Source: Verrucomicrobiota bacterium (GTDB lineage: Bacteria; Verrucomicrobiota; Verrucomicrobiia; Limisphaerales; UBA9464). Taken from it: DNA of 38,506 nt. The translations under genes and the position numbers were made by a program. The stretch is taken from contig JARXAF010000075.1 of assembly GCA_029865985.1 (NCBI GenBank), positions 1 through 38,506 of the forward strand. The letters run 5' to 3'. The notes under the pieces were generated by a model, which saw nothing but the letters and a program-made list of their open reading frames with translations, was not told the origin of the DNA and made no database searches. Positions 26,413 to 38,506 of this stretch are shown here, one piece after another. Each line of letters starts with the position of its first letter. Within the stretch, counting starts at the first letter, position 1.

Positions 26413-27303
26413 TCAGCGGGCGGGCGGATTGATCCGAGCCCCCTTGGCCTTCAGTTCCTCAACCTGAACCTTGGACTGCTTCGAGAGCGGATTGCCATCA
26501 AGATAAACCCGCACGAACGGGGCGAAGTTCCGGGTCTTCTCCAGATCGGGAGTCATCCAACGGCTCAAGGGAGCCAGGTCTCGGATGCGATTGTGGGACA
26601 ACTGCAGGAAAGACGGCGCACGGATGCCCGACAACGGGGCCAAATCGCTGATGCCATTGTGGGAGGCCGAGAGCAGGGTCAAATTCCGGAAGGCTCCGAA
26701 ACCTTGGATGGAGCTGATTTTGTTGTGATCGATGTAGAGAGTCGCAACCCGCGGCAAATTGGTCAGTGACGCCACCGAACTGAGCCGATTGGCCGAAAGA
26801 TAAATCGAAGCAAGATTGGTAAGACCCGACAACGGCTTCACATCCTTCACCTGATTGTGCGAGAGCTCGATGTACTGCAAGGCAGGCACCGAGGCCAACG
26901 GAGCGATGACCGAGACCAAGTTGGACGCCAGGTTGACGTACTGGAGCTGCTTCAAACCGGACAGGGGCGCGAGGTCGGCGATCTTGTTGCCCGGAATCTC
27001 GAGAGAGGCCAAGGCGACACAATGTTCCAGACCCGACAAACTGGTGATGCCTGAGAAGGGCGCGGACACGGTGGACACCGTCGCCACATCGGATGCCGTC
27101 AGCGGATCCTGAGATTCGCGCTTGGCGAAAACCTGACGACGCACAGCCGCCTCCAGCTTCTTGTCCTTGAAGACCGAGACCGGTGCGTTGGTCACCGCGG
27201 GCTTTTCAGCCGGCTTGGCCGCAGGTTCCGCTGCAGAGAGAGGCACCGAAGCCAACAGCAACACTGACGCACACAGGGAAGAAAGGATCGCTCGCTTGCT
27301 CAT
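26413..27303 (-). CDS. Secreted leucine-rich-repeat protein (internalin-like repeats)
   Basis: 296 residues: signal peptide (about 1-24, ending SAAEPA), an Ala/Pro/Lys linker, then a helical cap (KKLEAAVRRQVF and on). About seven leucine-rich repeats of 20-23 residues follow the SDS22-like pattern (for example YVNLASNLVSVIAPLASVPAL and YIELSHNQVKDVKPLSGLTN, about 90-270). Such proteins bind other proteins or carbohydrates at the surface or in the periplasm. No membrane anchor or sorting signal is seen. It lies 85 bp downstream of mlaD and may be on the same transcript. Confidence 0.9.
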   Translation of the reverse strand: MSKRAILSSLCASVLLLASVPLSAAEPAAKPAEKPAVTNAPVSVFKDKKLEAAVRRQVFAKRESQDPLTASDVATVSTVSAPFSGITSLSGLEHCVALASLEIPGNKIADLAPLSGLKQLQYVNLASNLVSVIAPLASVPALQYIELSHNQVKDVKPLSGLTNLASIYLSANRLSSVASLTNLPRVATLYIDHNKISSIQGFGAFRNLTLLSASHNGISDLAPLSGIRAPSFLQLSHNRIRDLAPLSRWMTPDLEKTRNFAPFVRVYLDGNPLSKQSKVQVEELKAKGARINPPAR

Positions 27304-27388: not shown

Positions 27389-28540
27389 TCAGCGCTGTTT
27401 GGACGGCGCATTGGTCTTGAAGGCACCTCGGAAGAGCCAATGCCGCTTGAGACCTCCCACGAAATCGGAGGAATTGGTCAAAACCCCGTCGACCGCCGGT
27501 AGGGTGTTCGAGCGAACCGTTCCCAAGGTCCGTTCCACCTCGACCAATGTGCCCGGAAGCGTCGTGTTGAGATTGGAGACCAACGGGCCCACCCCTTGGA
27601 TTTGCTGGTTCACCTGAGTCACCAGGGGCGGGACCGTGCGGCCCAGGTCGGTGAGCAGCGGAGGCAGCGTGGTGTTCAAGTTGGTCAGGAGCGGAGGCAC
27701 GGTGGAGTCGAGGTTCGAGACGAGCGAACCAATGCCGCCAATTTGCGCGTTCAAGTTGGTGAGCGTCACCGTCAGCGCGGCGCTCAAGTCGCTGGGGATG
27801 ATGATCTCCCCCAGTCCGCCGGGTCGGTCGAAGCGTGCCGACAAGTTGGTGGGGAAGAGCAAGTCGCCCAAGCCACCGGGCTTGGTGAAGGCCTCGCGAA
27901 TCTTCGGCACCAGCAGGGTGAGTTCGCCGATGAGATCCCCCGTGACCTCGGTGCGTATGAAGTAACCCTTGTCATTCGGGGTAAACGGATCGTAGCGGAT
28001 GAAATTCGTGACCTCCGGGCGACCCAAACTGTAGGCGTATTTGTCCCACAAGATGCCCAGAGCCGCACCGGCCGAAGCATTGGTGGACGGGGCCGTCGTG
28101 GGAATGCCCAGACCCTGACTGCGGGTCACCTCCAGGAAGTTCCCACCGGCGATGTCAATGGGCATGCCACTGACCTTGAGCTTGGAATCGGTGAAGATGT
28201 ACCCCTGATAGGGGTCCCGCACCAGGAACCGGACAAACACATTGAACCCTTCGCTGCGGTGCCAGGAATCATCCGGGGCCGTGTCGATCTGAACCACCTC
28301 ACCGATGGTGAATCCCAACATCTTCACCGGAGTGCCTACATTCACCGAACTGCCGTCCCGAAGGTAAGTGTAGTAAGGCACCCGTTTGACCCACCAACCC
28401 CGCTTGTCACCCGTGGTCTTGATGAAAAAGCCCAGACCGATAAGGCCCACGATGACCGCCCCCAACAGAAAGATCACAACGACCCATTCCACCCTGCGAA
28501 GGCGGGTCCGGAGTTGGGGAGTTAAATCCTGCAAGGCCAT
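27389..28540 (-). CDS. MlaD-family MCE-domain lipid transport protein with long helical C-terminus
   Basis: 383-residue inner-membrane-anchored protein. A basic N-terminus and one transmembrane helix (about 19-40) lead into a single MCE domain (about 50-150) with VNVGTPVKMLGFTIGEVVQI, the typical MCE strand pair. The C-terminal half carries repeated Leu/Pro/Thr segments such as STVPPLLTNLNTTLPPLLTD (about 255-345), like the helical repeats that extend tubes in long MCE proteins. It should form a hexameric ring or tube carrying lipids across the periplasm. The ATG at 28540 lies 2 bp after the ATPase stop; the frame upstream of it overlaps the ATPase gene and is not used. Confidence 0.9.
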   Translation of the reverse strand: MALQDLTPQLRTRLRRVEWVVVIFLLGAVIVGLIGLGFFIKTTGDKRGWWVKRVPYYTYLRDGSSVNVGTPVKMLGFTIGEVVQIDTAPDDSWHRSEGFNVFVRFLVRDPYQGYIFTDSKLKVSGMPIDIAGGNFLEVTRSQGLGIPTTAPSTNASAGAALGILWDKYAYSLGRPEVTNFIRYDPFTPNDKGYFIRTEVTGDLIGELTLLVPKIREAFTKPGGLGDLLFPTNLSARFDRPGGLGEIIIPSDLSAALTVTLTNLNAQIGGIGSLVSNLDSTVPPLLTNLNTTLPPLLTDLGRTVPPLVTQVNQQIQGVGPLVSNLNTTLPGTLVEVERTLGTVRSNTLPAVDGVLTNSSDFVGGLKRHWLFRGAFKTNAPSKQR

Positions 28541-28542
28541 GG

Positions 28543-29325
28543 TCAGGGACGGATATCCGTGGGGTTGTGGTAACCATCCTCGCCGGTACTGGCCAGAACA
28601 GTCTCCATGTCGGGAAGGATGCGCCATTGCCCATCCGCGACCAGCGCGAAGCGCGAGTCCAAGCCCGAGTAAGGGCGCACCGCATCGGCCGTAGCAATGA
28701 CCGCCAGGGGTTCACCGCCGAGCATGGGATGACCGGCCATGGCCTCCGTCAGGAAGCCGCGCCACCAACGGAGATGGACCGCATCCAAACCGGCCAATGG
28801 ATTGTCGAGCAGGAGAAGCCGCGGCTTCAGCACCAGGCAGCGGGCCAGAGCGACCCGACGGGACCACGACCGGCTCAAAGAACCGGGAGTCCGCAACAGG
28901 AGCGATTCCAACTGAAGGTGGCGAATCAAGGGTTCCAGTTCTGCAAGGGCCTCGGCCGGAGTGCGGTTCTGGTGATAACACCACGGCAAGAAGATATTCT
29001 CCTGAACGCTCAACGCCGGGAAGAGTCGACCGCTCCCGTCAAACACCAACCCCATGCGGCGGCGGGTTTCCCACAACCCCGCATCATCGTCATCAGCTCC
29101 GCCAACCGGGCGACCAAACACACGCACCTGGCCCGCGGCGGCCGGAATCAATCCAGCCAGCGTGTCCAGCAGCGCGGTCTTCCCGGATCCTTGGACACCC
29201 GCCACCACCCAGAGCTCACCGGAAGCCACCTTCCAATCCATCGCCTGAAGAACGACTCCTTCGGTCAAGGACGGGCGAGCGATCTCAAGAGACTCCGTCT
29301 CCAAGGCGGTGATGGTGGAGTGCAT
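28543..29325 (-). CDS. MlaF-like ABC transporter ATP-binding protein with degenerate motifs
   Basis: 260-residue ABC ATPase between the permease and MCE genes, so the likely partner of both. Walker A is intact (GVQGSGKT, 43-50). The other motifs deviate: the Q-loop Gln is Asp (VFDGSGRLF), the LSGGQ signature reads LSRSW (150-154), Walker B LLLLD is followed by Asn175 where the catalytic Glu is expected, and the H-loop His is missing (AVIATADAV). Such changes usually mean slow or absent ATP hydrolysis, or action as a regulatory half beside another ATPase. The start at 29325 lies 2 bp after the permease stop. The rest of the family fold is recognisable, so it is not a broken gene. Confidence 0.85.
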   Translation of the reverse strand: MHSTITALETESLEIARPSLTEGVVLQAMDWKVASGELWVVAGVQGSGKTALLDTLAGLIPAAAGQVRVFGRPVGGADDDDAGLWETRRRMGLVFDGSGRLFPALSVQENIFLPWCYHQNRTPAEALAELEPLIRHLQLESLLLRTPGSLSRSWSRRVALARCLVLKPRLLLLDNPLAGLDAVHLRWWRGFLTEAMAGHPMLGGEPLAVIATADAVRPYSGLDSRFALVADGQWRILPDMETVLASTGEDGYHNPTDIRP

Positions 29326-29327
29326 CG

Positions 29328-30167
29328 TCACAGGAGCAGGTACACCGTGATGAAGAGCGCATCGAGCATCAGACAACCCACCACGCAGACGGCCACTGTC
29401 CGCGTCGTCGCTGGCCCCACCTCTTCCAAGGTCATCGGCCGAGCCAGTCCCTGATAACAAATCACCCAACCAGTCAGCGCTCCGAACAAGAGGGTCTTGA
29501 GAACCAAAAGCGGAAAATCCATCGCAGTCATGGCTCCAGCGATCGCGGTGAAAAACTCCATCGGAGAGGCCTTCAATCCACGGGCATAGGCAAACACATA
29601 GCCTGAACCCAGCGAGATGAGGATGAGGTAAGCCGTCAGCGACACCACAGCCGCCGCAAAGCCCACAACCCGAGGCACCACGAGATAATGAATGGGATCA
29701 ATGCCCAGGACTTCCAGAGCCTCCACCTCGCCCAGGGCGCGGGCGGTCCCCAGTTCCACCACGGAAGCCGTCCCGACCCGGGCCAGCACCAGGAGCCCGG
29801 CAATCATCGGCGCCATCTCGCGGAGGAAGACGGTGACCATGAGTGTGCCCATGAAATTGCTGGCACCCACCTGCTCCATGAGTGAAACGGTCTGACCCAC
29901 GAAGACGATTCCCAGAACGACACCGAGAAATCCCACGATCGGCAGGAGGCGGACTCCGCATCGGTGGATTTCCCCAAGAACCTGCGGTCGAATCACCCGG
30001 GAATTGTCGCGGTAGCGCCGGACGGCCGTCGCCAGGGTGATGAGAATGAAGGCACCCAGACGAGTCAGGCTTCGCCACTCTCCGACGAACGCCGCCAACC
30101 ATCCGGACCCGCCGACAGAACCCTCGGTCGTGCCGGTTGTTCTGGAAGGGGGTGAGATCGCCGCCAT
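29328..30167 (-). CDS. MlaE-family ABC permease
   Basis: 279-residue inner-membrane permease of the MlaE/TGD1 family, which moves phospholipids with an MCE protein. GFLGVVLGIVFVGQTVSLM and FLREMAPMIAGLLVLARVGT followed by ELGTARALGEVEALEVLGID are strongly diagnostic; five helices follow the usual pattern. The frame extends back to 30410 but the ATG at 30167 (MAAISPPSR) gives normal length and starts 13 bp after the EpsI-like stop. With mlaF and mlaD it forms an mlaEFD unit; mlaA, mlaB and mlaC are not visible. Confidence 0.95.
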   Translation of the reverse strand: MAAISPPSRTTGTTEGSVGGSGWLAAFVGEWRSLTRLGAFILITLATAVRRYRDNSRVIRPQVLGEIHRCGVRLLPIVGFLGVVLGIVFVGQTVSLMEQVGASNFMGTLMVTVFLREMAPMIAGLLVLARVGTASVVELGTARALGEVEALEVLGIDPIHYLVVPRVVGFAAAVVSLTAYLILISLGSGYVFAYARGLKASPMEFFTAIAGAMTAMDFPLLVLKTLLFGALTGWVICYQGLARPMTLEEVGPATTRTVAVCVVGCLMLDALFITVYLLL

Positions 30168-30180
30168 GGGCTTTGGAGGG

Positions 30181-30924
30181 TCAGTGGCCAGTCGTCTGCG
30201 GTTCGCGCTCAATCGACGGCACGGCCGCCCCGATGAGCCGCGACATGCGCTCGAAGGTGACATCCTCAGCCCCCGGCTCGCTGAGCGAGAAAAAGGAGAT
30301 GTAGGCCCAACGCGGGCTACGCCCCTTGGAAAGAATGTCCCGAACCATTTGCCATTGGCGAGTCGAGTGGCTGGCCGTACGAATCCCGTCGGCCACGAAC
30401 CAGAACACATAAACCCCGTTGATGGTCACCCTGCGACCATCATCGCGCTCCACCGAACGAGTCATGTCAAAGCGCTGCACCTCAAGACTTCCGGGAGCCC
30501 ATCCAGGGACCTCAATGCTTCGGACGGTCTGCGAGAGGATCTGCCAACCGATGCCCGTCATGCAGTACTCGGGACGATGGATGCTGGTTCGATCAGCTCC
30601 CATGAGCACCACGCTCGCCATGACCGGAGGTAAAGATTCCCCGCCATGATAAGACCGGCGTCCGAAGGTCGTATCCGGAGGCAGGAAGCTCAGCTCGAGT
30701 TCGGGAATGGCATCCAACTGCGAACGATAACCGGGCAGGTTCGCCGGCAGGGACACCGAATTGGAAGTGGCCAGACGACCGCCTTCGGTCAACAGCGGAA
30801 GACCCACAATTCGCACCCCGGGTTCACCCATGCGGACCCGTTCCTTGAGCCAACGCAGAGAACCGGCCGCGGCGGCCACCAAGACCAACGCCACGATCGT
30901 GGGAATGGCAATCCGTGGATTCAT
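30181..30924 (-). CDS. Exosortase-associated EpsI-family protein (DUF3485)
   Basis: 247 residues: an N-terminal hydrophobic helix (about 6-25), then a periplasmic domain. GADRTSIHRPEYCMTGIGW is the hallmark motif of EpsI/DUF3485 proteins (His-Arg-Pro-Glu-x-Cys). NGVYVFWFVADGIRTASH follows. EpsI family members accompany exosortases in polysaccharide or sorting loci, and some exosortases carry this domain fused at the C-terminus. The ATG at 30924 overlaps the exosortase stop by three bases (ATGA), so the two are translationally coupled. Its biochemical role is not known. Confidence 0.9.
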   Translation of the reverse strand: MNPRIAIPTIVALVLVAAAAGSLRWLKERVRMGEPGVRIVGLPLLTEGGRLATSNSVSLPANLPGYRSQLDAIPELELSFLPPDTTFGRRSYHGGESLPPVMASVVLMGADRTSIHRPEYCMTGIGWQILSQTVRSIEVPGWAPGSLEVQRFDMTRSVERDDGRRVTINGVYVFWFVADGIRTASHSTRQWQMVRDILSKGRSPRWAYISFFSLSEPGAEDVTFERMSRLIGAAVPSIEREPQTTGH

Positions 30925-31895
30925 GACGTAGTGGGTCCACTGCTGGCAACTTCCGCAGCGGTTGTGCCCGATGATACATTCACGGAATCGGGTTCCTGCA
31001 GCCATCGGGCGACCAGGAACACACAACCCAAGGCGATGAGGAAGGTGGCAAAACCAAACTTCGTCTCGACGGCCTCACCCGCGGCCTGCCCGGCCGCTTC
31101 GGCCACGGCGAAGACCACGATCAGTCGGATCACATTGGCCAACACCGCAAAGGCCGGACTGAGCAGGATCAGGAAAATCCGTCGCCACGGTGTCCTGAAA
31201 TTGAGGAAGGCGAAGGTGACCGTCAGGAGAAGCACCACCGTGGCGCTGCGAATGCCGCTGCAGGCCGGAGCGACATCAAACCGAAAACCCTGGGCGGTCG
31301 CTGAAGCCTTTTGGAAGACGATCGTACCGGCTCGCTCCAAATTCATGTTCAGGACCCACTCGCAGAAGGTGGCCGAAAGCAACGTGCTCAGGAGGCGCAA
31401 TCCGTGGGTCAGAGTGTCGAGAAAGACGGAGATCGGGACGCAAAAGAAAAACAACAGGTAGGGAAAGGCAAAGCCCCGCATCCACGCCCGACCCCAGTAC
31501 ATGCCCATGATCCCGAAAAGCCCGACCAGGAAACCCACCACCCCGAGGCGCGTCTGCTGGACCACATATCCCGAAAGGTGCAGGAGCAAGCCCATGGGGA
31601 CCAACGCCAGCGCCGGAGTCCAAGGTTCCTTGGCAATGGCGGTCAATTCGGAACGCCGCATCACAATGATGGCGCCCACCAACCACGGGATCATCAAACC
31701 CAATTCATCATCGCGTCCCTGCTGGGCACCGCCTTCATAAACCGCCTGCAGCCAACCAAACATCGAATCGGTCTGGATGTAGCCGAGAGTGGAGTTGCCC
31801 AAGAAGTGGAAGAGAGCGAACCACGCCGCAACGACCAGCCCAAAGGCCGCCTTGTGGGGAAGGCTATCCCACAGCGATCGCAATTCTTGAAGCAT
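30921..31895 (-). CDS. Exosortase (PEP-CTERM sorting transpeptidase), catalytic His not found
   Basis: 324-residue membrane protein with about eight helices. VAPACSGIRSATVVLLL carries the catalytic Cys (C212) and a conserved Arg, and ANVIRLIVVFAVAEAAG the second Arg (R257), as in the exosortase/archaeosortase family. After this the family usually shows a His just before a Gly near the last helices. The matching region reads EAVETKFGFATFLI, with no His. Exosortases recognise PEP-CTERM tails and are thought to cut and transfer them; a substrate candidate is encoded just upstream. The ATG at 31895 is preferred to the TTG at 31907. Confidence 0.88.
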   Translation of the reverse strand: MLQELRSLWDSLPHKAAFGLVVAAWFALFHFLGNSTLGYIQTDSMFGWLQAVYEGGAQQGRDDELGLMIPWLVGAIIVMRRSELTAIAKEPWTPALALVPMGLLLHLSGYVVQQTRLGVVGFLVGLFGIMGMYWGRAWMRGFAFPYLLFFFCVPISVFLDTLTHGLRLLSTLLSATFCEWVLNMNLERAGTIVFQKASATAQGFRFDVAPACSGIRSATVVLLLTVTFAFLNFRTPWRRIFLILLSPAFAVLANVIRLIVVFAVAEAAGQAAGEAVETKFGFATFLIALGCVFLVARWLQEPDSVNVSSGTTAAEVASSGPTTS

Positions 31896-32028
31896 CGACG
31901 GTTGCAAGTGGGTTAAAAGTGACCCGTCCCGACGCCACCACGCAAGGGCAACGTCAATCCATCACCGTGACGAACTGGGGTTGCGGACCTCCCAGGCTCC
32001 TGTCTGATCGCCGTTTGCTGGGTTTGGT

Positions 32029-32736
32029 TCACCGGCGGCGGCACGCCACCATGGCCAGCAATCCCAATCCGAGCAGGAGCACGCCCGCCGGTTCGGGCAC
32101 TGAAGCCACCGCCTTCACTTCCCAGGCCTTCAGCAGGCCAGTGCCACCGCCCTCCATATCTGCAACGAACAAGGTCCATTGACCGTTCGGATCCATCTGG
32201 CCCAACGGGGTCAACAGAGCCGATCTGGGCGAGGTATCCATCGACACCATCGGGTCCACACGCCGCCCGTCGGGTTGCCAGATCCCCGTCACCGCACCGG
32301 CCGGCTCACCACCCAAAGAAACTCGATATTGGTGAATGTCGTACTGGGCTGAATCCGTGAAGGTGAGTTGAAAACCCGAATCGCTATACCCATTGGGTGA
32401 ACCGGTCGACGAACCCACCCGATTCATCAACACCGCCAGACGAAACTCCGAACCGGACGGGGTTTCGTGAAGCAAATAAGCATAGTAGTCGCCGTTGAAG
32501 GCTCCAAACTCGCTCCCCTCAACGGAGAGTTGAACGGTCAGATCATAGGGAATCCCAACCGTGAGCCCGCTCGTCTTGAACGATCGAGCGATCCCCGATG
32601 GATCATTGTCGGGAATCGCCAGGCTGATCCCTGACTCACCATAGGTGAAACCCAGATCCTGTTGGGCCTGCAACGAGTGACAGGTGACCCCAACAGCGAA
32701 AATCAGAACCCGGAGCGGGATACGAGGCGTGTTCAT
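32029..32736 (-). CDS. PEP-CTERM sorting-domain protein with P-domain-like fold
   Basis: 235 residues: an N-terminal signal (RIPLRVLIFAVGVTCHSLQA), an extracellular beta-rich domain, and a C-terminal tripartite sorting signal: VPEP, a hydrophobic stretch AGVLLLGLGLLAMVA, and CRRR. DPNGQWTLFVADMEGGGTGLLKAWEV just before the tail resembles proprotein-convertase P-domains common in such proteins. It is the likely substrate of the exosortase encoded 134 bp downstream. The ATG at 32736 is used; a GTG at 32763 would overlap the stop of the preceding giant gene. The 133-bp gap to the exosortase gene holds nothing recognisable. Confidence 0.92.
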   Translation of the reverse strand: MNTPRIPLRVLIFAVGVTCHSLQAQQDLGFTYGESGISLAIPDNDPSGIARSFKTSGLTVGIPYDLTVQLSVEGSEFGAFNGDYYAYLLHETPSGSEFRLAVLMNRVGSSTGSPNGYSDSGFQLTFTDSAQYDIHQYRVSLGGEPAGAVTGIWQPDGRRVDPMVSMDTSPRSALLTPLGQMDPNGQWTLFVADMEGGGTGLLKAWEVKAVASVPEPAGVLLLGLGLLAMVACRRR

Positions 32737-32759
32737 GAAATGATTATCTGATCGGTTGT

Positions 32760-35700
32760 TCACTGGATGGTCCCGAGCAGGCGATAGAATCGAACTTGAG
32801 AATTCGTCTCTGGATCGAGCAAATCCAAACGTCCAGCCTCATCGGCCGTCGCCTCACCCAGGTCGGTCCAAGGCACGCTGGAATCCAATGAGGATCGACC
32901 CATGATCCGATAGGTTCTACCGGGAACTGCGGCAAACCTCAGTTGAACACCACGGGCCAAGGGCAGAACCCTCACCAGGTTTTGAGCCACTCCGGTCGTC
33001 CACTCTCGAGCCACCAGGTTGACACGGCCGCGGGACGTTTCCTTGCCATTGCCCATTTCATAACCGAAGGAATCGACCATCGAATCGGCCAAGCCCAAGG
33101 GCGGGGTGTAGATGATCCACCCGCCATCGAGTCGGACGCTTCCTCCCTGCGTCGTGAGGGGATCAACTCGAACGAGCGCTGCAGATCCCTCGACGACGAA
33201 GTCATTGGCCAGGATTTGTTGCACCTTCCACTTGAGCGGTTGTCGGGGGATACGAACCAAGAAATCGGCATTGGCGATCACCCGATTCTGGATCACCAGA
33301 TTCACCCCATTGCTCGGGAGACTTGAGACGCCGGAACTGTTCGAGGCCACCGCCGTGAACACATGTTCGCTCACGGACAACGGCGCGGGCGGCGTGAAGG
33401 TCCAGACACCTTGATCATTCGCCTGAGTCGTTCCCAGAAGGTTCAATCCGTCATACACGTTCACCGTGGTTCCGGCCACCGCCGTGCCCGAAATCTGCGG
33501 TTGGAGCTCGGCTGTGGGGCTTTGCAAGGCGTTGACCTCTGGCGCCGCAATCGTCGCATCCCGGGTCACATAGGCCAGGATGCCCGGGTCGAAGATCGAT
33601 CCCACCTTGGGGTCTTCATCGCCCCGTTCATTGTCGACGAAGTAGACCACCACCTCGTCGAACTCCGAATCCGCATCGGTGTTCACGAATTCGGCCCCCG
33701 TGTAGAGCACGTTGCCGGCGGCATCCCGACGAGGGACCCCGAGCGAGGTCGTCAAGGCTGTCTTCAGAAACTCATACCGAGTTCCATCCGAGGCCGATTT
33801 GACGAAGGTATTCACTCGGCTTCCCACTGGCAGGAGGAATCTCACGACGTTCTGCTTTGCGGCAAATTCCGCACGCACCGCTGATTCGAAGGTGGCCTGC
33901 TCCGAGGCGGATACAGAACCCTTCACCTCGACGGTGGGTTCCAAAGAAAACCCGAGCAGGCCCAAATCGGTCCGCAGATCATTCACTTCCGATCCTCCGA
34001 GGACCGCCTTCACGGCTTGCCGGTCATCGGCAGAAACAGCACCCACCTCGACGCTGCTGATCTTGACCGTCGCACTCAATTGCCCGCCGTCGGAAGCGGT
34101 CTTATCCAGCGCTGCCGCATAAGGATTGTCCTGACCCGTAGCCGTGATCGAGAGGTAGGTTTCTGGATCTCCCGGATCGGAGTTGAGCACGGGCAATGAA
34201 GCAACCGCGTTCTGCTGGGCGTCATTGATGCCATCCCTGTTGCGGTCGCCGGCGAAGGCCTCGGTGAAGTTGTCCACGCCATCGCTGTCAAAATCCACGG
34301 TGATTCGGACGAACATCTCCCGAACCAATCCATTGGCCTGAAGCAGCAACTTCATGTCCACGGCGGAAACAAATCCTGGAGGCACATTCACCTGCACCGA
34401 GTCACCTTGGACCCCGGCTACAATGCCTTTGGCCGACAGCTCATCAGGGTTGCCGATCGAGGCAGAAACGGATCCCCCCTCGGGGTTGACGAAATACTCA
34501 TTGATTGAGAACCCACCGGAACCGCCCCGCTCGTCGGCGGTGATCGTCCAATTGAGATCCCTACCAAGCCGCAACTCCGCAGGCTCGACCACATTGGAGA
34601 CCAAGACATTCACCGGTTGGATGGCCTCACCGCCGCGACCGTCCACCACCACCACCGCCAATTGGTAGCGGCCAGCGAGGGCGGCATCGGTGGGATTTTC
34701 AAAGTCAAAAGCCTTGCGGGCGCTCACCCGCCCCGAGCTGGTCATTGCAAACAAGGCTGCATCGCGACCCACCAGACGATACGACATCGGATCTGAGTCG
34801 GGGTCCGATCCACGGGCCGCAAACGCGACGGTGCGATTCTCAGGAAGGACGATCGAAACCGTTCCATCGACTACCTCTGCGGGCAGCGATCCATCCGGGT
34901 TGGATTCGTCGGCCGCCCAAATCACAAGCGTGGGCGTGCCATTCGGTTGCACGAGTGAACCTCTCAACTGCACCGGGAGTGTCGTCTGCACCTGAGCACC
35001 CTGCGGATCAGTGGCGGTCACCTGGATCTCTGCCGTCGATGCCACCGCCGACAGGGCGGTGATCCGAAGCTCCCTGTCCACGGTGCTGGCATTCAAACCA
35101 ACGCCCACGGAGTCCACCGAATAGGACAATCGAGCCACGTCATCCGGATCCCGATCAGCGAAAAGCCCCACTAAGCTCAACGTCATGCTCTGGTTTTGAG
35201 CCAATGAAATCACCGGGACCGTCAGGGACTCAGGCGTGTCGTTCACATTACGAACGGCGATGTAGATGAATCCCGACGCCGTATGAACGACCGTGTTGCC
35301 ATCGGTGCTCAACAAGTCCACGCGGTAGGGCAAGGTCGCGTATCGGAATGCGTACTCATCGGCCGCCGGAACAAACAGAACTTGTCCGGACACGAAATCT
35401 TGCAGCGATACCGTGACCGGATTGTTGAGGCTCGGTGATACCACCGTCCGCACACCTTGGTTCTGGATGGAAAGGGTTCCCTTGGAATTGCCCTGGGAAT
35501 CCACGGCTGGACCCGTCAGCACCATCCGTCCAATGAGGTTTTGATTTCCCAACTGATCGACAGGAAGCGTCGTGCCGTCTCCAAAAACGAGCGACACCGG
35601 TTGGCTGGCACTCGTCGCCAAAGCCCCTCCCACGTCCTCATTCAAAATCAGGAAGTAGGTCGCATTCAGGCTCAACTGAAGGGACTGGCGAACCACGGCC

Positions 35701-38506
35701 ACTTCAAAGGTCGAGATCGCCGACAAGGGCGACACACCAGAGTCCGTGGCGGTGACTTGAACCGTGTAAGTACCCAGGGTCGACGGGGTTCCGCTGAAGG
35801 TCAGCGTCTGCGGTTGGAACACGACACCCGGAGGCAGGCCGCTGGCGGCATAGGTCAACGACTGGCCAGCATCGACATCGGTGAACGTTCCTGCGGCCAG
35901 CGACCAACTCGCCGCTTGTTGCAGCGACAGCGTCTTGCCCGGGACCGAGGCCGCCAGCACCGGGGCGTCATTCTGATCCAAGACGGTCACCACCACCTCG
36001 CGAACCGTGACCAAACCACCGTCACTCACTTCAATGCTCAACCGGTGGGTTTGTTTGCTTTCAAAATCGAGGCTCTGGCTGGCGCGCAGGGCACTGCCGT
36101 TGACATTGAATGAAGCATTGTCTGCAACACCCGGAACCAAGCGGTACTGGAAGACCGTGTTCCGATCCGGATCGGAACCTTGGAGTGTTCCAACGACTGC
36201 ATTCGGCCCTGCATTCTCTGCCACCGAAGACCCCGTCAACACGAGCCCATCGGGCGATTCATTCACATTGATCACCGTCACAGCCAATGACTGCTGGGAG
36301 ACGTTGGCCGATCCATCGGTCGCTCCGATGACGACTTCGTAGACATTGTCGCGATTGTCATCGATTGGCGTCTCAAAATCCGGAGCGTTGATGAAGCTCA
36401 GGATGCCCAGATTGCTGAGGGTGAATTTCGCCGCATCCCGCCCGCCGACCAAACTCCAGGTGACGGCTTCATTGGCGGTGAACGCATGGACCGAGGTGTT
36501 GTTTTCACTGACGGTTTGAACCGAGGACAATCCGGTCAAGCCTCCCGGACCCGCAATCAGAGGAGCTGTGACATCATTGAAAGTCAGTGCTACCTCAGTC
36601 TGGCTGGTTCCACCATTCTTGACGTCAGCCCCTCCGAGGGTTGCCACCACGATGCCCACACCCGCGCTAGACGGAGCGGTCAAGAGGGCAGTGTAAGTAC
36701 CATCTCCACGGTCGGTGACGGGTCCGATTTGGCCCACACCCGACTTGAGACGAATGACAACCGTCGATCCGCCGATACCCAGATTGTTTCCAAGAGCATC
36801 CTTCGCCGTAACCGTCAGCAGCTGGGTACTTTGACCATCGCCGGGGAGCAGAACCATCGCGGGGGTCAGGGTCGAAATCCGGGCATCGGCCGCGCCCACG
36901 GTGACACTGAAGGCGCTAGAAGTACCGCCGGTCAGCGTCCCGCTAACCGCAACCAAGGTGTAACCGGTACCGGCCTTGTTGATCGACAATCCCGCGAAGG
37001 TTGCGACACCGGCCACCGCATTCACCGACGAACCACCGGTCAACGCCCCACCGCTAGTGTTGTTGTCCAGCACCAGCGCTACGGAATCCGTCGCAGTGGT
37101 CACGCGGTTTCCGAATTGGTCGCGCACCTCCACCGTGACCGAGGGATTCATGGTCACTCCAGCGACAACGGACGACGGCTGAGTCACAAAGGCCAACTGC
37201 GTCGTAGCGCCGGCCGTCCCCGTCGCAGAGATCGTCAGCGGAGAACCAGCCAATCCGGCCGATGTCACTCGCAGCGTGTTCGCACCCGCGATGGTTCCCA
37301 AGGTCCAGGTCGGGCTCGTTGCGACGCCGGTGCTATCGGTGGTGACCACTCCAGTCGAAGCCAGCGAGCCGCTGCCGCTCGCCACCGCGAAGGTCACCGA
37401 CACACCACTCACCGCGTTGCCTTGGGCATCCGTCACCTTCACTGACGGCGCGATCGCTACCGCGGTTGCGACCGTCGCGCTCTGGTTGTTGCCGCCGTTC
37501 ACCGCGATCTGCGTCGCCGCACCGGCGCTCACCGTCACGTTGGACGAATCCGCCACCGTCAGCGTCGGTGTCGAGCTGAACCGCAACACGTAGTTCTGAC
37601 CCACCGTGCCGGCCAAGGTCACCCCACTGAAGGTCGCCACGCCGCCCGTCGCCGTCGCGGTCAGCGTTCCACCCAAGGTGCCACCCGTTCCACTGGTGAT
37701 CGCAACTGCAAACTGGGTCGTACCGTCGGTCGTCACCGTGTTGCCGTACTGATCTCGCACCGTCACCACAGGCTGCACCGTCAACACCGTGCCACTCGCC
37801 CCGCCCACAGGCTGCGTCGTAATGGCCAACTGCGTCGCAGCGCCGGCCGTCCCCGTCGCCGAGATTGTCAGCGGAGAGCCAGCCAATCCGGCCGAAGTCG
37901 CAGTCAGCGTGTTCGCACCCGCGATGGTTCCCAACGTCCAAGCCGGGCTGGTTGCGATGCCCGTGCTGTCCGTGGTGACTGCTCCAGTCGAAGCCAGCGT
38001 TCCACTGCCGCTCGCCACCGCGAACGTCACCGACACACCACTCACCGGGTTGCCTTGGGCATCGGTCACCTTCACCGACGGGGCCGTCGTCACTGCGGTC
38101 GCCACCGTCGCGCTCTGGTTGTTGCCGCCGTTCACCGCGATCTGCGTCGCCGCTCCGGCGCTCACCGTCACGTTGGACGAATCAGCCACCGCTAGCGTCG
38201 GTGTCGAGCTGAACCGCAGCACGTAGTTCTGACCCACCATGCCCGCCAAGGTCACCCCACTGAAGGTGGCCACGCCGCCCGTTGCCGTCGCTGTCTGGAC
38301 ACCACCCAAGGTGCCGCCCGTTCCACTCGTGATCGCCACTGCAACCTGGGTCGCGTTGTCGGTGATCACCGTGTTGCCGTATTGATCACGCACCGTCACC
38401 ACCGGCTGCACCGTCAACACCGTGCCACTCGCCCCGCCCACAGGCTGCGTCGTGATGGCCAACTGCGTCGCAGCGCTAGCGCTCACTCCGATAGAATCCG
38501 TCGCCG
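32760..38506 (-). CDS. Giant repeat adhesin-like surface protein, N-terminus cut by window edge
   Basis: Open from the right edge to the stop at 32760, over 1,910 residues with no start in the window. The visible N-terminal part is an A-B-A-B-A' array of Ig-like domains (QLAITTQPVGGASGTVLTVQ-type and QIAVNGGNNQSATV-type). These are followed by an invasin-like domain (near 36.7 kb), several cadherin-like domains with DFExP and NVNESP motifs (near 36.5, 36.2 and 34.7 kb), and an Ig-like domain ending in FSGTPSTLGTYTV. A Ca-binding-like DSDGVDNFTEAFAGDRNRDG lies near 34.25 kb, then a region near 33.6 kb with DEDPKVGSIFDPG, another Ig-like domain and a Big_9-like domain. The protein ends RTYRIMGRSSLDSSVPWTDL...FYRLLGTIQ, a tail common in this phylum. 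No PEP-CTERM tail or anchor is seen. It is 23 bp upstream of the PEP-CTERM gene. Confidence 0.9.
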   Translation of the reverse strand, partial: ATDSIGVSASAATQLAITTQPVGGASGTVLTVQPVVTVRDQYGNTVITDNATQVAVAITSGTGGTLGGVQTATATGGVATFSGVTLAGMVGQNYVLRFSSTPTLAVADSSNVTVSAGAATQIAVNGGNNQSATVATAVTTAPSVKVTDAQGNPVSGVSVTFAVASGSGTLASTGAVTTDSTGIATSPAWTLGTIAGANTLTATSAGLAGSPLTISATGTAGAATQLAITTQPVGGASGTVLTVQPVVTVRDQYGNTVTTDGTTQFAVAITSGTGGTLGGTLTATATGGVATFSGVTLAGTVGQNYVLRFSSTPTLTVADSSNVTVSAGAATQIAVNGGNNQSATVATAVAIAPSVKVTDAQGNAVSGVSVTFAVASGSGSLASTGVVTTDSTGVATSPTWTLGTIAGANTLRVTSAGLAGSPLTISATGTAGATTQLAFVTQPSSVVAGVTMNPSVTVEVRDQFGNRVTTATDSVALVLDNNTSGGALTGGSSVNAVAGVATFAGLSINKAGTGYTLVAVSGTLTGGTSSAFSVTVGAADARISTLTPAMVLLPGDGQSTQLLTVTAKDALGNNLGIGGSTVVIRLKSGVGQIGPVTDRGDGTYTALLTAPSSAGVGIVVATLGGADVKNGGTSQTEVALTFNDVTAPLIAGPGGLTGLSSVQTVSENNTSVHAFTANEAVTWSLVGGRDAAKFTLSNLGILSFINAPDFETPIDDNRDNVYEVVIGATDGSANVSQQSLAVTVINVNESPDGLVLTGSSVAENAGPNAVVGTLQGSDPDRNTVFQYRLVPGVADNASFNVNGSALRASQSLDFESKQTHRLSIEVSDGGLVTVREVVVTVLDQNDAPVLAASVPGKTLSLQQAASWSLAAGTFTDVDAGQSLTYAASGLPPGVVFQPQTLTFSGTPSTLGTYTVQVTATDSGVSPLSAISTFEVAVVRQSLQLSLNATYFLILNEDVGGALATSASQPVSLVFGDGTTLPVDQLGNQNLIGRMVLTGPAVDSQGNSKGTLSIQNQGVRTVVSPSLNNPVTVSLQDFVSGQVLFVPAADEYAFRYATLPYRVDLLSTDGNTVVHTASGFIYIAVRNVNDTPESLTVPVISLAQNQSMTLSLVGLFADRDPDDVARLSYSVDSVGVGLNASTVDRELRITALSAVASTAEIQVTATDPQGAQVQTTLPVQLRGSLVQPNGTPTLVIWAADESNPDGSLPAEVVDGTVSIVLPENRTVAFAARGSDPDSDPMSYRLVGRDAALFAMTSSGRVSARKAFDFENPTDAALAGRYQLAVVVVDGRGGEAIQPVNVLVSNVVEPAELRLGRDLNWTITADERGGSGGFSINEYFVNPEGGSVSASIGNPDELSAKGIVAGVQGDSVQVNVPPGFVSAVDMKLLLQANGLVREMFVRITVDFDSDGVDNFTEAFAGDRNRDGINDAQQNAVASLPVLNSDPGDPETYLSITATGQDNPYAAALDKTASDGGQLSATVKISSVEVGAVSADDRQAVKAVLGGSEVNDLRTDLGLLGFSLEPTVEVKGSVSASEQATFESAVRAEFAAKQNVVRFLLPVGSRVNTFVKSASDGTRYEFLKTALTTSLGVPRRDAAGNVLYTGAEFVNTDADSEFDEVVVYFVDNERGDEDPKVGSIFDPGILAYVTRDATIAAPEVNALQSPTAELQPQISGTAVAGTTVNVYDGLNLLGTTQANDQGVWTFTPPAPLSVSEHVFTAVASNSSGVSSLPSNGVNLVIQNRVIANADFLVRIPRQPLKWKVQQILANDFVVEGSAALVRVDPLTTQGGSVRLDGGWIIYTPPLGLADSMVDSFGYEMGNGKETSRGRVNLVAREWTTGVAQNLVRVLPLARGVQLRFAAVPGRTYRIMGRSSLDSSVPWTDLGEATADEAGRLDLLDPETNSQVRFYRLLGTIQ
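37207..38472 (-). repeat. Two near-identical 633-bp tandem coding repeats in the giant gene
   Basis: Units 37207-37839 and 37840-38472 match at an offset of exactly 633 bp (211 codons) with few substitutions over long blocks. Each unit codes for two Ig-like domains, A then B. The segment below 37207 is a diverged A-type domain, and the array probably continues past the right edge. Confidence 0.9.

Follow-up and report, generated by a model that had tools for sequence, protein, structure and literature searches.

A probable docked pseudo-ATPase in a minimal MlaEFD-type operon of Verrucomicrobiota, and related loci without an mlaF gene

In canonical transporters the nucleotide-binding domain (NBD) contacts the permease via a coupling helix, and in the actinobacterial Mce operons, which encode MlaE-like permeases and MCE proteins and carry no ATPase gene, MceG acts as the active ATPase in trans. 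The MlaFEDB transporter of Escherichia coli and other proteobacteria (PDB 6xbd, 7ch0) combines an MlaE permease (PF02405), the MCE protein MlaD and an ABC-fold MlaF encoded next to them, in which all ATPase motifs are present and needed: E170Q or the Walker A mutant K47A alone does not complement (PMC7367683), and ATPase activity of the E170Q variant is down by about 80% (PMC7784689). A minimal MlaEFD system, consisting of a three-gene mlaE-mlaF-mlaD operon with a long MlaD, is described for Veillonella parvula (PMC10665443); its MlaF is closely similar to those of model diderms, and a beta-barrel is part of its MlaD. According to the same survey, the MlaDs of PVC bacteria are barrel-less, and MlaF was left out of the phylogeny because of its uncertain annotation; no description of a degenerate or missing MlaF in PVC was found in the parts consulted (PMC10665443). 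Other MCE lipid systems, PqiAB and LetAB, have inner-membrane partners, PqiA and LetA, that work without an ATPase (PMC12436622). Minimal MlaEFD operons with a long MlaD and barrel-less PVC MlaDs are already known; a search of open-access papers gave no account of operons of this sort with an MlaF that is degenerate, Walker-A-less or absent. The field is still asking whether MCE/Mla transporters require ATP for lipid movement, and in which direction the lipids move.

The window analysed here, a stretch of 38,506 nucleotides from a Verrucomicrobiota bacterium, carries on its minus strand an mlaE-mlaF-mlaD operon with gaps of 2 bp between the genes, the mlaE stop lying at 29328 and the mlaD ATG at 28540 (Table 1). 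The mlaF frame contains no internal stop and is, as an earlier note on this DNA had put it, open and tightly coupled to both neighbours. The same note had spoken of an intact mla operon, which holds insofar as mlaE, mlaF and mlaD are all there; these three are the only mla genes at the locus, which is of the minimal MlaEFD type. In Pfam comparisons the MlaF-like product reaches 82.8 bits against ABC_tran (cut-off 25) and MlaD 31.5 bits against its MCE family (cut-off 25.1), while the permease, of about 279 residues from an inferred start codon and with the coupling region GTARALGEVEALEVLGIDPIHYLVVPR, matches the MlaE family above the cut-off and no PqiA-type inner-membrane protein. The locus resembles MlaFEDB in its MlaE, its MCE protein and its adjacent ABC-fold MlaF, but has no mlaB between the genes and an MlaD about twice as long. 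In gene order and long MlaD it agrees with the Veillonella operon; unlike there, no C-terminal beta-barrel domain was recognised on inspection of the MlaD translation by eye, the C-terminus carrying repeats of the NLNTTLPPL kind. PqiA and LetA, in turn, are not MlaE-type ABC permeases, whereas the permease of the window is a true MlaE with what would be a docked pseudo-NBD. An MlaE-type permease and an MCE protein of the same operon are in place; an MlaF recognisable as ATP-hydrolysing is not.

Table 1. Coordinates of the three genes and of the MlaF motif positions in the window
Feature	Position	Strand	Remarks
mlaF, MlaF-like pseudo-ATPase (predicted)	28543..29325	-	260 aa; PF00005 4.5e-23; orthologues
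mlaE, MlaE-type permease, type A of the clade with degenerate MlaF	29328..30167	-	PF02405 8.3e-48
mlaD, long single-MCE protein	27389..28540	-	383 aa; PF02470 2.1e-7
Walker A, GVQGSGKT, MlaF residues 43-50	29176..29199	-	intact; Lys in 101/107 orthologues
Q-loop position, Asp96 replaces Gln (LVFD96)	29038..29040	-	Asp/Glu in 81/107
Signature position, residues 150-154, LSRSW replaces LSGGM	28864..28878	-	first Gly to Arg in 70/107
Walker B end, LLLLD174-N175	28801..28806	-	Asp174 kept, Asp in 107/107; catalytic Glu replaced by Asn175, Asn in 75/107
H-loop position, Asp214 (ATAD) replaces His	28684..28686	-	Asp/Glu in 76/107

Alignment of the window protein with E. coli MlaF (reference sequence verified against PDB 6xbd), where Asp214 falls in the column of the H-loop His, confirms in every part the earlier description of an intact Walker A beside four degenerate ABC motifs. 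The comparison with Verrucomicrobiota orthologues that had been proposed was run on four catalytic features (Q-loop Gln, S-G of the signature, catalytic Glu and H-loop His): 96 of 107 non-redundant orthologues keep none of them and 11 keep one, and the canonical MlaFs of the same phylum keep all four in 49/49 cases. A 97%-identical MAG likewise lacks all four, and of these motifs only its signature differs (LGRSW vs LSRSW). Sequencing error, which had been named as a possible refutation, is ruled out by this MAG together with the pattern in the 107 orthologues, and chance or error as the origin of the motif loss is excluded. In-frame TGAs in the locus L015 were an artefact of a match overrunning the natural stop.

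The search with the single protein returned close relatives and distant ABC proteins only; the relatives that bear names are Verrucomicrobiota MAGs, and all that was seen of the lineage comes from MAGs. Matches were obtained in 59/59 relatives searched, many to other ABC proteins, with clear orthologues in most. Among the compared genomes, which are mostly MAGs, orthologues of the degenerate MlaF occur in 189/243 genomes and 82/103 genera of the order, Limisphaerales in GTDB terms, and also in the families f139 and f140 of the same class. Degenerate and canonical MlaFs separate in an IQ-TREE phylogeny, the degenerate ones forming a single clade (support 100/100). The motif replacements are old and conserved across the order and two further families of the class. 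Where a genome has no degenerate MlaF, the MlaE that goes with it is mostly missing as well.

We consider it likely, from these sequence comparisons, that the product of the locus is a minimal, MlaEFD-type MCE lipid transporter in which MlaF is a docked pseudo-ATPase, and that this transporter works without ATP hydrolysis. The first of the three possibilities raised in the earlier note, a protein that binds but hardly hydrolyses ATP, is supported by the motif pattern: the Mg-ATP-binding elements, Walker A and the Walker B Asp, are present, and hydrolysis is very unlikely because four catalytic sites are changed. The degenerate MlaF would keep the ABC nucleotide-binding domain fold (an AlphaFold model, computed for this protein together with ten close orthologues and reaching a pLDDT of 51.5, is too poor to use for the fold), would probably still bind nucleotide, and would sit on the MlaE coupling helix as a structural or gating subunit, an ATP-hydrolysis cycle presumably being beyond it. 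Lipids, the presumed substrate, would pass from the inner membrane via the MlaE cavity into the tunnel of the MlaD hexamer with no ATP being hydrolysed, in the simplest case following their own gradient. The role of docked pseudo-ATPase is well supported by comparison; that the transporter would most simply be a passive lipid conduit is a reading helped by the mlaF-less relatives described below. Passive lipid flow, also among the earlier suggestions, would fit best.

The gene is maintained, as the note had stated. Within the genus, dN/dS is 0.12-0.23 for the degenerate mlaF, 0.02-0.06 for its canonical counterpart in these genomes, mostly 0.04-0.12 for mlaE and 0.05-0.10 for mlaD. Purifying selection on the degenerate gene is real, though 3-5 times weaker than on the working ATPase, and the role of the protein, which evolves 3-5 times faster than canonical MlaF, may be minor. 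Its full-length frame and operon order are kept across dozens of families, mlaE directly preceding it at all 63 loci and mlaD following it at 57 of them, with two of the remainder stopping at contig edges. In two loci (L038, L040) a gene for a XerC-like tyrosine recombinase lies downstream of mlaF at the place expected for mlaD.

The earlier interpretation, in part supported, had missed a clade that spans the phylum and includes members without Walker A or without mlaF; we found it by searching with the partner MlaE, the wider search covering the phylum. Besides type A, to which the window belongs, this clade comprises a type B, a separate MlaE paralogue present in 26/243 genomes of the order (27 loci, L251-L277), and a type C, likewise a separate paralogue, found in 44/357 genomes of the phylum, all outside the class of the window (L278-L324). 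At 10/27 type B loci a Walker-A-less MlaF remnant lies between mlaE and mlaD, and at 15/27 mlaE is followed directly by mlaD, the MCE domain starting 35-177 bp past the mlaE stop; the other two stop at contig edges. Type C has mlaE and then a Walker-A-less MlaF in all 30 loci read, with an MCE domain behind in 28. In total, Walker A is gone in 40/40 type B and C loci that have an mlaF, and these remnants match the ABC family past the Walker A region, partly under the Pfam cut-off. Type A itself includes a genus, g310, in whose two genomes (L232/G650 and L234/G658) mlaF has been lost, mlaE being followed directly by mlaD; the MlaE coupling helix is here deleted, shortened or rewritten. In one genome of another family (L233, G640) the MlaF keeps the Q-loop Gln and the Glu (DEP), but its signature, its H-loop His and part of its Walker A are gone; this may represent such decay at an early stage.

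In a midpoint-rooted MlaE tree, a branch with support 100/99 separates types A, B and C and the mlaF-less loci from all canonical MlaEs; types B and C form a joint group (100/100), and the mlaF-less type B loci are nested among those bearing remnants. The clade thus presents a graded series, from loss of the hydrolysis motifs (A) over loss of Walker A (B and C) to deletion of mlaF with mlaE and mlaD still adjacent. On balance, ancient and phylum-wide ABC-type MCE transporters of the Verrucomicrobiota appear to have shed their ATPase stepwise, giving up catalysis, nucleotide binding and finally the whole subunit, with permease and MCE tunnel still working; MlaE and MlaD alone would then be an ATP-independent intermembrane lipid conduit. 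Such a natural series, with permease and MCE protein linked throughout, offers a direct way to ask what MlaE and MlaD can do alone. It would clearly exemplify the loss of the motor from an ABC transporter, and suggests that transporters of an ATP-driven kind can go on working once the motor is gone. Note also that annotation as MlaF ATPase from operon position alone overstates the function of these systems.

A histidine within YH (residues 117-118; RHHT in types B and C), after the Q-loop region, is common to all three types, and E. coli MlaF has a His in the same column. This region, with other residues that types A-C have in common, may face MlaE.

The coupling helix bears on whether an NBD still docks. 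The divergence of this 13-residue segment relative to the rest of MlaE, a measure that compares sequences sharing common descent and falls short of a formal rate model, is 0.18x where type A carries the degenerate MlaF, 0.37x where type B has a Walker-A-less MlaF and 1.40x where type B lacks the gene, and this segment shows the largest relaxation upon mlaF absence among 75 windows along MlaE. The simplest reading is that the dead MlaF would still dock on MlaE and that after its loss no replacement does. Canonical MlaFs encoded elsewhere in the genome could in principle act in trans, and the actinobacterial Mce operons with MceG resemble the mlaF-less relatives in combining a permease and MCE proteins with no ATPase gene in the operon; they differ in that the coupling helix of the mlaF-less relatives has lost its constraint, which argues against a canonical MlaF in trans.

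Among the other explanations, an energy source different from ATP, for instance an ion gradient acting on MlaE, with the degenerate MlaF as a leftover scaffold, is unlikely. It has precedents in the ATPase-free partners PqiA and LetA of other MCE systems (PMC12436622) and is compatible with the persistence of MlaE without MlaF in relatives, but no positive support for it was found.

It is quite unlikely that the degenerate MlaF is an active ATPase in which carboxylates at the Q-loop (Asp/Glu96) and the H-loop (Asp/Glu214) replace the Walker B Glu. The replacements are non-random, Gln and His each giving way to Asp/Glu, Glu to Asn and Gly to Arg at the frequencies of Table 1, and the Walker A Lys and the Walker B Asp are retained; slow or unusual hydrolysis via the new acidic residues may, as a counterpoint, be conceivable in type A, which has kept these two. 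The acidic Q-loop, however, shows no clear covariation with the Walker B substitution or with Arg152, the ATP sandwich should be hampered by the bulky Arg and Trp of the signature, and sister lineages have kept the operon with Walker A wholly gone. Two pairings of charges were tried as candidates and rejected: a salt bridge of Arg152 with Asp96/Asp214 across the dimer (no covariation; acid in 38/44 with Arg and 15/19 with non-Arg) and an exchange of charge between the Q-loop and the Walker B position (no clear covariation; Q-loop acid in 45/51 with Asn and 8/12 without).

In heterodimeric ABC proteins each ATP site is formed by Walker A/B and the His of one subunit and by the signature of the other, and the known degenerate-site heterodimers keep one full ATP site. 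The second earlier suggestion, pairing with another ATPase, would have the degenerate MlaF form such a heterodimer with a canonical, hydrolysing MlaF from another mla locus. Partners exist: the search for a second MlaF gene, which had been proposed, found two more mlaE loci in the genome (contigs 129 and 135), each with a fully canonical MlaF neighbour, and MlaE copies number about three in most genomes of the order. Degenerate-site heterodimers are moreover well known (PMC12038006, PMC5216877), and the exporters TM287/288, BmrCD and Rv1273c/72c are like the degenerate MlaF in having an ABC NBD with substituted catalytic residues. They are, however, heterodimers with one full site, whereas the degenerate MlaF has lost its contributions to both: because it lacks the Glu and His plus the signature, both composite sites with a canonical partner would be broken. 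The MlaE coupling helix is also unconserved in mlaF-deleted relatives, which is what the absence of a docking canonical NBD would predict. Pairing is thus disfavoured and, in our judgement, very unlikely. That mlaF in the species of the window is a decaying gene with no present function is most improbable, since, fast as the protein evolves compared with its partners and with canonical MlaF, and lost as the gene is in genus g310, dN/dS lies well under 1, frames and gene order persist across families, and residues of the clade such as W31, W39, N110, P114, Y117, H118 and W187 are (near-)invariant.

A docked MlaF pseudo-ATPase remains the reading we prefer. As to the surroundings of the operon, translations inspected by eye show an exosortase-like gene (30181-31907) and an EpsI-like gene (32029-32763), both on the minus strand and directly upstream of mlaE. 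Beyond them, still upstream, a protein ends in a tail of PEP-CTERM type, VPEPAGVLLLGLGLLAMVACRRR, again judged by eye. An open frame of 1908 aa occupies 32760-38486 on the minus strand. Directly downstream of mlaD, on the same strand, lies a gene for a leucine-rich-repeat protein with a signal-peptide-like start (26413-27303).
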